The notes beneath the pieces are model-generated. The model saw nothing but the letters and a program-made list of their open reading frames with translations, was not told where the DNA came from and searched no databases. A program made the position numbers and the translations under genes. Of a stretch of DNA of 64,000 bases, positions 34,795 to 37,035 are shown one piece after another. The stretch comes from Moheibacter lacus (GTDB taxonomy: Bacteria > Bacteroidota > Bacteroidia > Flavobacteriales > Weeksellaceae): the NCBI RefSeq assembly GCF_014042165.1, contig NZ_JACDZE010000003.1, forward strand, positions 73,568 through 137,567, given 5' to 3'. Each line of letters begins with the position of its first letter. The first letter of the stretch is position 1.

Positions 34795-35202
34795 ATGTTG
34801 ACGAAAAAGACAAAATACGGATTAAAAGCGATGACTTATTTGGCCAAAAATACTTCTGGTCAACCAGTTTTGATTTCTGAAATAGCGGAAAATGAAAATA
34901 TACCTTTAAAGTTTTTGGAAGGAATTCTTTTAGATTTAAAGAAAAACGGATTATTACTATCCAAAAAAGGAAAAGGTGGAGGATATTTTTTAGAAAGACC
35001 TGCCGAATCCATTTCTTTGGCTTCAATCATTCGTGTTTTGGATGGTCCGATTGCACTTTTACCGTGTGTAAGTTTGAATTATTATAAAAAATGTGATGAT
35101 TGTCAGGATGAGGTGTCATGTTCCTTAAACCGAGTGATGGTGCAGGTTAGAGACAAAACGCTAAAGGTTTTGGAAAGCCAATCTTTAAATGATTTAGTTT
35201 AA
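34795..35202 (+). CDS. Rrf2-family transcriptional regulator with cysteine cluster
   Basis: A 135-aa winged-helix regulator (KKTKYGLKAMTYLAKN, IPLKFLEGILLDLKKNGLL, KGGGYFLERP). The C-terminal part holds four cysteines (PCVSLN, KCDDC, SCSL), the region in which IscR, NsrR and RsrR bind a Fe-S cluster; cluster binding is inferred. The ATG at 34795 is preceded by an overlapping three-codon frame (ATG ATA TGT TGA from 34790), which could affect initiation. No iron-sulfur or nitrosative-stress genes are next to it. A candidate small RNA follows directly. Confidence 0.9.
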   Translation: MLTKKTKYGLKAMTYLAKNTSGQPVLISEIAENENIPLKFLEGILLDLKKNGLLLSKKGKGGGYFLERPAESISLASIIRVLDGPIALLPCVSLNYYKKCDDCQDEVSCSLNRVMVQVRDKTLKVLESQSLNDLV

Positions 35203-35222
35203 AATCAAAAAAAAATAATTTT

Positions 35223-35234
35223 TTAGTATACTAA
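35223..35234. promoter_or_regulatory. Perfect 12-nt palindrome (TTAGTATACTAA), operator candidate
   Basis: The palindrome lies 15 bases upstream of the -7 element of the candidate small RNA, overlapping where the -33 element would be, and 20 bases after the Rrf2 stop. This is a natural place for a repressor or for Rrf2 itself to bind; that is inferred. Confidence 0.5.
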
Positions 35235-35249
35235 TTTGATAGACTTTAC

Positions 35250-35257
35250 TATATTTG
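35250..35257 (+). promoter_or_regulatory. Promoter -7 element (TATATTTG) of the candidate small RNA
   Basis: Exact TAnnTTTG match in the gap between Rrf2 and recN, where no protein gene follows on this strand. There is no TTG at -33; a palindrome takes that place. Confidence 0.5.
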
Positions 35258-35261
35258 TGGT

Positions 35262-35361
35262 GTACAAAAGCATAACGGTTTGTACAGGTCTTATTTTTTA
35301 AGATTATTTGTGTGTTAGTTATTTATGCCTCATGGTCGAAGTCTCAACTATGAGGTTTTTT
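35262..35361 (+). ncRNA. Candidate small RNA of about 100 nt
   Basis: Between the -7 element and a terminator lie three hairpins. The first is a perfect 8-bp stem TGTACAAA / TTTGTACA (35261-35268, 35279-35286). The second is TCTTA / TAAGA with a T-rich loop (about 35288-35302). The third is the terminator CCTCAT / ATGAGG with six T (35328-35361). The predicted start falls at the first hairpin. No reading frame of note is inside. A known flavobacterial RNA family such as Flavo-1 is possible but I cannot match it from memory. Confidence 0.45.
35328..35361 (+). terminator. Rho-independent terminator (small RNA and/or Rrf2 gene)
   Basis: Stem CCTCAT / ATGAGG (35328-35333, 35350-35355), loop of 16 nt with some internal pairing, followed by TTTTTT. 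The T-run is only on the plus strand, so it serves the small RNA or Rrf2, not recN. Confidence 0.7.
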
Positions 35362-35379
35362 ATGCAAAATATTTTGGGT

Positions 35380-37035
35380 TTAAGCTTTGATCAGTTCTTT
35401 TGCCTGATCGATCGCTTTTTCTGTGATATCGGAACCGCTTAAAAGTTCAGCGATTTCTCTCACTCGGTTTTCATTTGAAAGTTCGTGAACCTGAGTTATC
35501 GTCTTTCCGTTTTTGATGTTTTTGGAAATTTTGAAATGTTGATTGGCTTTGGCAGCTACTTGAGGAAGATGGGTGATGCTGATCAACTGTAAACTATCAG
35601 CCATTTCTTTCATCAAATTTCCTACTTCATTGGCTACTTTTCCTGAAACACCGGTATCGATTTCATCTAAAATGAGTGTCGGCAATTCTAATTTTCCGGC
35701 AAGCGCTTTTTTGACCGATAACATCAATCTTGAACGTTCACCACCGGAGACTGATTTGCTCACTTGTTTCATTTCAGCACCTTTATTGGCGCTGAAAAGG
35801 AATTCGATTTCATCTTTTCCGTTCCATTGGAAATCTTTTTTCTGACTGAGTTCCAATTTCATGGTCGAATTTTCCATCCCCAATTTCCCCAAAGATTCCA
35901 GTATTTCCTTTTCTACCTTTGGAATGGATGATTTTCGCGCAATGGAAATTTCATCAGACAATGATCCCAATTGATTTTCAATTTGGTGCAAATCATTTTC
36001 GAGTTTCGAAATTTCAGCTTCTAAATTTTGAAAATTTTGGTTTTCGTTTTCCAATTCAAATTGAATGGATAACAATTCTTCAATCGAACTTACACGGTGT
36101 TTGTGTAATAAATTTTGGATCAAATCCAGTCGTTCGTTGACCTCAAATAACCTTTCGGGATTGGATTCCAAACGTTGGGTTTTTTGAGCAATTTCGGTAT
36201 TTAAATCATCCAATTCGATGCGCGAAGATTCCAGTCTTTTTTGATAATTTTCCAATTCTTCTCCCATTCCGGCCAATTTTTGAAGTTGGTTGGAAGCTTC
36301 ATGTAATTGGGAAAGAATGCCAAATTCTGCTGTATCTAATTTTGTGCTGATTTCAACTAAAACACGTTGGATTTCATCTACATTTTGTAATTCGATTTGT
36401 TCTTTCTCCAATTCTTCAAATTCATTTCGTACTAAATTCGTAGCCAAAAGTTCGTCCAATAAAAACTGTTTGTAATCAGCTTCACGACTGAGCTGATCGA
36501 GTTCTTCCCGTTTGGATTTGAGTCGAATTAGAATTTGATTTCGTTTTAAAAATTCTGTTTGGTATTTTCTGATCAAATTCATTTGCGAAGCAAAAGCATC
36601 CAGAATCTGAAGTTGAAAATCTTGGTGAAATATATTTTCAGTGTTGAATTGAGAATGAATATCAATTAATTTCTCCCCCAATTCCTGTAAAATGTTTAAA
36701 GTTACCGGCGTATCATTGATAAAAGCTCTGGATTTCCCGCTTGGAAGCAATTCTCTTCGCAATATGGTTTCTGCATCATAATCCAATTCGTTTTCTTCAA
36801 AAAAGGCTTGAAGCTGTAAATTGGAAATAGAAAATTGTGCTTCGATGATGCACTTTTTAGTTGAATCGTTGAGTTGTTTCAAATCGGCTCTTTCCCCCAA
36901 AATCAATTTTAATGCACCCAATAAAATGGACTTTCCTGCTCCGGTTTCACCCGTGATGATGGTCAATCCTTTTTGGAACTGCATCTGCAATTCATCGATG
37001 ATAGCAAAATTGGATACCGAAAGTCGGGTGAGCAT
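35380..37035 (-). CDS. recN: DNA repair protein RecN
   Basis: An SMC-like ATPase of double-strand break repair, 551 aa. The N-terminal Walker A is ITGETGAGKSILLGAL, the middle (about 150-370) is coiled coil, and the C-terminal half has the ABC signature SVSGGERSRLML and Walker B LPTLILDEIDTGVSG. All nucleotide-binding motifs are intact. It is the last gene of the bamD-rpoZ-coaBC-porD-recN block and overlaps the porD stop by one base. Confidence 0.96.
   Translation of the reverse strand: MLTRLSVSNFAIIDELQMQFQKGLTIITGETGAGKSILLGALKLILGERADLKQLNDSTKKCIIEAQFSISNLQLQAFFEENELDYDAETILRRELLPSGKSRAFINDTPVTLNILQELGEKLIDIHSQFNTENIFHQDFQLQILDAFASQMNLIRKYQTEFLKRNQILIRLKSKREELDQLSREADYKQFLLDELLATNLVRNEFEELEKEQIELQNVDEIQRVLVEISTKLDTAEFGILSQLHEASNQLQKLAGMGEELENYQKRLESSRIELDDLNTEIAQKTQRLESNPERLFEVNERLDLIQNLLHKHRVSSIEELLSIQFELENENQNFQNLEAEISKLENDLHQIENQLGSLSDEISIARKSSIPKVEKEILESLGKLGMENSTMKLELSQKKDFQWNGKDEIEFLFSANKGAEMKQVSKSVSGGERSRLMLSVKKALAGKLELPTLILDEIDTGVSGKVANEVGNLMKEMADSLQLISITHLPQVAAKANQHFKISKNIKNGKTITQVHELSNENRVREIAELLSGSDITEKAIDQAKELIKA

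Follow-up and report, generated by a model that had tools for sequence, protein, structure and literature searches.

The gap between an Rrf2-family regulator gene (rrf2) and a convergent recN-like gene, within the window (the whole 64-kb stretch of DNA that was analysed), raises the question of whether it holds a gene of its own and, if so, what controls this gene and on what its product acts. An earlier note had suggested a short RNA of about 100 nt under repressor or activator control, perhaps by the adjacent Rrf2 protein. Comparison among related genomes supports this suggestion, with the transcript and the binding being predictions. On balance we favour a trans-acting small RNA of about 100 nt that is governed by the adjacent Rrf2 protein and acts on thiol-redox mRNAs. 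The RNA gene and its operator are well supported, and the targets, the signal and the sign of control are what we infer.

The predicted RNA gene between rrf2 and recN

The features of the locus are collected in Table 1. The window lies in a genome of 2.77 Mb (G000), which was compared with five others of the genus (G001 to G005). To judge from its relatives and from the tree of Rrf2 proteins, the family is Weeksellaceae, in which Chryseobacterium-like genera are also placed.

Table 1. Features at the rrf2-recN locus (positions within the window).
Feature	Position	Strand	Remarks
rrf2, Rrf2-family transcription regulator, 135 aa	34795..35202	+	Pfam PF02082, 131.3 bits
Predicted Rrf2 operator TAGTATACTAATTTGATAGACT, 22 bp	35224..35245	+	ends 4 nt before the -7 box; 15/22 columns invariant in five genomes
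-7 promoter box TATATTTG (TAnnTTTG)	35250..35257	+	no TTG at the -33 position
5' hairpin TGTACAAA...TTTGTACA	35261..35286	+	sequence not conserved; some hairpin predicted in 5/5 species
Predicted small RNA, about 100 nt	35262..35361	+	start inferred from the -7 box; conserved in G000-G004; fold z -3.67
Hairpin 2, TCTTA/TAAGA	35289..35303	+	13/15 columns invariant
Unpaired linker TTATTTGTGTGTTAGTTATTTAT, proposed pairing region	35304..35326	+	19/23 columns invariant
Intrinsic terminator, six T	35327..35361	+	27/35 columns invariant
recN-like gene, convergent	35380..37035	-	Pfam SMC_N, named recN by eye; not part of the system

Reading of the sequence recovered all of the elements that the earlier note had named between the two genes: the exact -7 element, the hairpin at the predicted start (arms at 35261-35268 and 35279-35286), the second small hairpin (arms at 35289-35293 and 35299-35303) and the terminator with six T (stem 35327-35355, T run 35356-35361). 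The claim that no protein gene follows held as well, as the sole ORF of at least 40 aa over the RNA (35308-35442, TTG start) crosses the terminator into recN. Read from its 5' end, the RNA would carry two hairpins, then the unpaired linker, and last the terminator. It folded at -24.7 kcal/mol, and 0 of 200 shuffles were equally good; in G002, G001, G003 and G004 the z values of the RNA were -6.05, -4.23, -2.96 and -4.05, respectively. Much of this value is supplied by the terminator, because the 67 nt preceding it reached a z of only -0.95. The 5' hairpin differed in sequence from species to species, and its fold clearly beat shuffles only in G000 and G002 (z of -2.66 in G000, -5.66 in G002, -1.61 in G001, -1.12 in G003 and -0.84 in G004). 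The 18-nt core of the linker had a mean unpaired probability of 0.89, 0.91, 0.55, 0.80 and 0.79 in G000, G002, G001, G003 and G004, respectively.

Rfam gave no match in the window at the gathering threshold. The search of Rfam that the earlier note had proposed, Flavo-1 included, was extended to E 10 over 35180-35400 and returned five weak matches, none of them a family member and none of them Flavo-1. The best of these was the trpB RNA motif (RF04312), and membership was rejected because its score of 21.7 bits (E 0.55) is below the gathering threshold of 59. A generic terminator scan reported nothing at the 3' end of the RNA, presumably because it accepts loops of at most 8 and the loop here exceeds this size. 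The RNA promoter was not reported by an E. coli-type promoter scan, which does not cover this promoter type.

A DNA search found the RNA element in 5 of the 6 genomes of the genus (G000 to G004), and each of the five copies lay directly behind an orthologue of rrf2. No element was found by this search in G005, an assembly that is 81% complete and in 570 contigs, and a joined query including the recN end, which had no positive control, also gave no match there; this may reflect an assembly gap. The recN gene (named by eye in G001 and G002) ends just behind the RNA in G000, G001 and G002. Its place downstream is taken in G003 and G004 by ribosomal protein genes (rpsH onward, named by eye), so the element belongs with rrf2. 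In these two genomes (L010/L388 and L011) rpsH and the subsequent ribosomal protein genes come right behind the Rrf2-RNA pair, and a TACATTTG box and a long leader precede rpsH, as if the ribosomal operon had been split there. Where recN is the neighbour, its transcript, if it read on, would be antisense to the RNA, which we regard as a side possibility.

The alignment of the five sequences showed a mosaic of conservation. Besides the values in Table 1, the columns were invariant at 4 of 21 positions in the spacer behind rrf2, 5 of 8 in the -7 box (where the program misplaced the G001 row, which lowers the count), 2 of 31 in the 5' hairpin region (35258-35288) and 3 of 14 downstream. Promoter, linker and terminator are fixed and the 5' hairpin is free to change, and we read this pattern as that of an independent RNA gene. 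The conservation that the earlier note had called for was therefore found for the second hairpin, the terminator and the operator, but the first hairpin is conserved at most as a fold and the exact palindrome in the promoter is not conserved. All 74 cells of the aligned stems paired (6 pairs being counted in hairpin 2). Covariation, which the note had also wished to see, was not strong: no pair had changed on both sides in either aligned stem, and the terminator stem was kept through one-sided changes (U-A to U-G and G-U to A-U). Among 246 genomes of the family, which strict filters had selected from a larger group, a covariance model built on the 3'-terminal 75 nt of the RNA matched 5 at 86 to 102 bits; the next best matches reached 38 (G003) and 34. 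The match in G003 was rejected as a second copy, being a terminator behind another gene. Six of the other loci listed by the model (one of them from G005, of the same genus, the rest from outside it) were inspected by eye and contained stems with T runs or loose likenesses, and no second copy. As far as searched, the RNA is thus restricted to the genus, and a viral collection contained no exact copy of the linker and stem. Taken together, the stretch is very probably a real RNA gene, as judged from its sequence and conservation.

The predicted operator in the RNA promoter

The earlier note had placed a perfect 12-nt palindrome at the position of the -33 element. This palindrome, TTAGTATACTAA, lies at 35223-35234 and has no second copy in the window, and none of 100 shuffles contained it. 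It is not the operator itself; it forms the left half of the 22-bp dyad. Its equivalents differ among the relatives, being TTAGTATACTTT in G002, ATAGTATACTAA in G003, ATAGTATACTGT in G004 and ATACTATAGTAA in G001. From the alignment we take the conserved unit to be the 22-bp site that contains most of the palindrome, and not the palindrome. The -7 box fits the consensus TAnnTTTG given in the available parts of PMC9723704 and PMC6847099; TATATTTG alone is not unusual, with 2 occurrences in the window against 4.1 expected.

Orthologues and near relatives of the Rrf2 protein were collected at 100 loci, of which 8 came from the genus (5 distinct) and one was cut off, and the 91 loci outside the genus were read. 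A site like TAGTCTAC-N6-GTAGRNT, a pattern partly shaped on the window site, was found within 500 nt behind rrf2 at 37 of the 91 (20 shuffles: mean 3.35, maximum 9) and within 130 nt at 33 (shuffled mean 1.75, maximum 5). The site in the RNA promoter thus has the operator pattern that is seen at the Rrf2 relatives of other genera. An unsymmetrised matrix was made from 25 of these outside sites and applied to both strands; of the 12 matching loci left out, L012 and L069 were judged to be chance and ten were near repeats. With this matrix 35224-35245 scored 23.0 bits, the best value in the window, and the next non-overlapping site scored 9.9. In a 400-kb sample of the genome the maximum was 10.1 bits, and 0 of 799,160 positions reached 23.0. 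The RNA promoters of G002, G001, G003 and G004 scored 18.9, 14.3, 20.8 and 16.7 bits, respectively. A symmetric matrix was dropped, as it was one base out of register (window site 9.0, with 94 sampled positions as high).

The distance between site and -7 box was read for 21 sites. At the RNA promoters it was 4 nt, or 5 nt in G001, in all five genomes. Likewise without a TTG at -33, a peroxiredoxin gene of the genus had a distance of 5 nt (3/3), a transporter gene elsewhere one of 3 nt (3/3), and L043, L051 and L088 one of 5 nt. The distance was 8 nt at a methyltransferase gene and 13 nt at the cysH loci L113, L116 and L117, where the TTG is present. L052, L114 and L115 had no exact -7 box within 45 nt of the site. 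Promoters without a -33 box are common in Flavobacterium johnsoniae according to the available text of PMC6847099, so the missing TTG at the RNA does not prove activation.

A pattern search of G000 with at most 3 mismatches returned five places. Three of them belong to the RNA, the peroxiredoxin gene and an AprA-type methyltransferase gene; the other two are weak and lie in or at coding sequence. The Rrf2-type operator stands before the peroxiredoxin gene in G000 (L285:1500-1552; PRK13189 family), G002 (L276) and G005 (L279), which suggests that oxidative stress may be a further cue for the regulator. An operator-like site was also observed at the methyltransferase promoter in G000 (L291:1500-1556) and G002 (L287).

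The RNA would be transcribed from a sigma-A promoter without a -33 TTG. The operator occupies the region that ends 4 nt ahead of the -7 box, so that gating of this promoter by Rrf2 is strongly indicated by comparison, and control of the RNA by the neighbouring Rrf2 protein appears likely. Alternatively, the RNA could chiefly represent the 3' end of the rrf2 mRNA, arising by read-through and released by cleavage as a 3'-UTR RNA, with the terminator serving rrf2. Only about 20 nt separate the rrf2 stop codon from the operator, and no other terminator was seen there by eye; the terminator scan likewise reported none in this gap, but it had also missed that of the RNA. In 5 of 5 genomes, however, the RNA is immediately preceded by a -7 box and an operator, for which a processed 3' UTR has no use. 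We consider this origin unlikely as the main one, though both routes may act together.

Candidate targets of the linker

The control of mRNAs by the small RNA would run through the conserved linker, which is proposed to pair with leaders just before the start codon and thereby to alter translation or stability. Action through the linker on mRNAs seems to us somewhat better than an even bet. When G000 was searched for the complement of the linker, the three best sites outside the RNA (1-2 mismatches) all lay in leaders: those of a gene for a TlpA-like thioredoxin, of a gene for a T9SS-sorted protein 2.4 kb further, and a leader elsewhere (L166). A further complementary site covers the first codons of the Omp28 gene, which is divergent from TlpA; this site is coding sequence for a conserved peptide, a point that counts against the reading.

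Paired with the linker of its own species, the TlpA leader forms 15, 13, 11 and 10 contiguous pairs in G000, G002, G001 and G003, respectively, and the Omp28 site forms 12, 12, 10 and 10. Among 697 sampled genes at most 10 contiguous pairs with the linker were found, a number reached by 4. The energy of the TlpA duplex was equalled or beaten by 0 of 381 sampled genes in G000, 0 of 100 in G002, 2 of 117 in G001 and 0 of 99 in G003; TlpA had been chosen for being the top site of G000, which leaves only the three remaining species as a test, and orthologous leaders are not independent of one another. The TlpA leader site of G005 scored -16.1, and 11 outgroup TlpA leaders without the site ranged from -2.5 to -12.1. 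Leaders of this kind stand before TlpA and DsbD in G005 too, yet no RNA was found in that genome. No close TlpA match was found in G004. Several secreted-protein genes of the TlpA/Omp28 cluster each have their own CACAC-type leader (L149, L151 and L232). We give the TlpA cluster even chances of being a true target.

The DsbD leaders contain CACACAC in 6 of 6 genomes of the genus. They form 11, 11, 9, 8 and 8 contiguous pairs in G000, G002, G001, G003 and G004, respectively, with energy ranks of 4 of 381, 0 of 100, 4 of 117 and 11 of 99 in the first four of these. An ACACACA stretch is present in the DsbD leader of all six genomes, more so than in the leaders of trxB and the desulfurase (L392-L395, L402 and L403). 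The thioredoxin reductase gene (trxB) is complementary in G000 (10 pairs) and G001 (14 pairs) and poorly so in G002 (6 pairs) and G004 (-10.2), and inspection of the G003 trxB leader by eye revealed no complementary motif. The cysteine desulfurase gene is complementary in G000, G003 and G005 and not in G001 and G002, and none was found in G004. The best-supported candidates are thus TlpA-like and the divergent Omp28, followed by DsbD, with trxB and the desulfurase being candidates in some species only. As a whole, the set is suggestive of thiol redox.

Exact sites of AACACACAAA outside the RNA lay at ORF starts in G000 in 5 of 13 cases, against 12.7% expected (84/659; p only 0.018). Genome-wide, matches to an 18-mer were not in excess, with 57 (five RNA copies included) against 69 for a control in which the pattern was read backwards. 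An ORF start followed 20 of the 57 sites and 20 of 65 control sites (65 of the 69 being read). The control shares the core AACACACAA and is therefore weak; still, these counts give no support for a wide regulon. AACACAC was rejected as a general start motif, as it occurred in 1 of 697 sampled genes against a permutation mean of 2.7.

The genome-wide counts would also agree with a reading in which the RNA titrates a protein (an RNA-binding regulator, RNA polymerase or Rrf2 itself) and the linker is a protein site and not a seed; an unpaired, conserved linker between two hairpins fits this as well. It would, however, leave the long complementarity at the starts of TlpA and Omp28 in 4 of 4 species tested without a place, and we hold titration to be improbable. 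If the linker does pair with mRNAs, as we prefer, pairing would hinder initiation, in the manner of GibS, which according to the available text of PMC7366714 binds repressed targets by pairing at their start regions. The mRNAs of Bacteroidota are described as lacking Shine-Dalgarno sequences in the part of PMC6847099 at hand. Repression of the targets is favoured over activation, by roughly two to one in our estimation.

The Rrf2 regulator, its neighbourhoods and known systems

Four cysteines of the Rrf2 protein (C91, C100, C103 and C109) are invariant in 10 aligned proteins, including that of the window. The Rrf2 proteins of Chryseobacterium also have four cysteines, with one residue fewer between two of them in the alignment. 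Rrf2 regulators that bind Fe-S clusters have the same kind of conserved cysteines. The NCBIfam match of the protein was at superfamily level only, and assignment as an IscR equivalog (TIGR02010, 77.9 bits against a cut-off of 207.55) or a CymR equivalog (NF047409, 71.6 bits against 195) was rejected. In a tree of 97 Rrf2 proteins, made from a short alignment and with many unsupported forks, the five RNA-linked ones formed one group (99/94), which stood beside L110 from another genus of the family (98/84) within a wide, mostly Flavobacteriaceae set.

A match to the cysH protein of L113 (PF01507, 147 bits) was found by tblastn at 13 of the 100 loci, L113 included; cysH encodes PAPS reductase. 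Several other Flavobacteriaceae loci carry a DUF2061 gene and then a reductase-like gene, named by eye, and a 60-residue piece of one reductase-like protein had no match in Pfam. At L050, L053 and L082 a transporter gene lies downstream, and the protein encoded at L053 resembles CitMHS and matches Na_sulph_symp. Eleven Chryseobacterium loci are without cysH behind the site and have a short ORF with a CysH-like start, followed by a membrane-protein gene. At these loci (L055, L057, L064, L068, L071-L073, L079, L081, L083 and L084) the -7-like box is kept, with the short ORF present in most. By this reading of the sequences, operator and cysH leader have outlived the enzyme gene in Chryseobacterium, and the short ORF may either encode a small protein or be a remnant in decay. 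The alignment of these loci, checked for a replacement RNA, contained no conserved terminator after the leader.

PF01507 was found in 1 of 6 genomes of the genus and in 0 of the 4 near-complete ones. The exception is G004, in which cysH-like genes stand beside a second Rrf2 gene (L389, contig C321) whose product is 53% identical to that of the window; this contig could be foreign or mis-binned sequence. As the tree, the neighbours and the invariant cysteines indicate, this is an old regulator that usually neighbours sulfate-assimilation genes, whose place in the genus is taken by the RNA. In sister lineages a regulator and site of this kind precede cysH or a transporter gene; the comparison of genomes shows a genus that has mostly lost cysH and retains the regulator with the RNA in that place.

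It may be asked whether only the promoter and terminator matter, the element being an Rrf2-operated remnant of the lost cysH operon that gives a functionless short transcript. The operator is indeed kept while cysH is absent from 4 of 4 near-complete genomes, and the 11 Chryseobacterium loci retain it without cysH and with the short ORF after it. A remnant does not account for a linker and hairpin 2 as conserved as the terminator beside a 5' hairpin free to change, nor for an RNA kept in two species with different downstream genes, and we consider it quite improbable. That the element belongs to the other strand, as the terminator region of the convergent recN, is suggested by the end of recN just behind it in G000, G001 and G002, but it is highly improbable, as the minus-strand stem is followed by CATAAATAACT and no T run, and it is largely refuted by G003 and G004, where recN is not the neighbour.

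We return to the Rrf2-controlled, trans-acting RNA. Given the sister genes and the four cysteines, the signal is probably cysteine/sulfur or thiol/Fe-S status; Rrf2 would sense sulfur, cysteine or the thiol/Fe-S state and open or close the RNA promoter. It is a tentative possibility that a sulfur/thiol-sensing Rrf2 without a classical cysH operon now tunes the envelope thiol-redox chain and cysteine use via an RNA in the operon's old place. If so, the chain tuned would comprise TrxB, DsbD, TlpA and Omp28, a sulfur counterpart of the logic of iron-sparing RNAs, and the regulon would have been rebuilt from enzymes to RNA.

The window protein shares the Rrf2 fold with CymR of Bacillus and IscR of Escherichia. 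CymR governs cysteine and sulfur genes and IscR governs Fe-S genes. Against these two, the window protein falls below both curated cut-offs, and its operator was derived here independently of theirs. In GcvA-GcvB, OxyR-OxyS and SgrR-SgrS a small RNA lies beside its own regulator gene, with an operator in the RNA promoter and a metabolite or redox signal; these pairs are divergent and their regulators belong to other families. In contrast, rrf2 and the RNA are in tandem, and the regulator family differs. The Rfam trpB RNA motif RF04312 is alike in layout alone (5' hairpin, spacer and terminator). To our knowledge, few small RNAs of Bacteroidota have a known controlling protein. A search of the literature by title found nothing on an Rrf2-controlled small RNA in Bacteroidota, which is weak evidence of novelty, and from its sequence the RNA looks like a new regulatory small RNA. 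The locus places regulator, operator, RNA and candidate targets in one testable frame, with sister genera showing apparent other targets of the regulator. If the reading is true, sulfur/thiol status would be linked to envelope disulfide chemistry through an RNA, and a regulator would have kept its site while its output shifted from an enzyme operon to an RNA.

As far as the available text of PMC9723704 goes, Rfp18 and the other Rfp RNAs of Flavobacterium psychrophilum are likewise flavobacterial small RNAs conserved in a genus, and several related targets are predicted from one pairing region, as here. Rfp18 differs in being linked to metalloprotease mRNAs, and the word Rrf2 occurs 0 times in that text. 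GibS of Bacteroides thetaiotaomicron, as described in the available part of PMC7366714, is likewise an intergenic small RNA of Bacteroidota, conserved in its genus and with a 3' terminator; like the proposed linker, its long seed is unpaired and binds mRNAs around their start codons. GibS differs in its length of about 145 nt, in the position of its seed at the 5' end, in its induction by N-acetylglucosamine and in its location between metabolic gene clusters, and it has been tested experimentally, whereas the RNA described here is a prediction.
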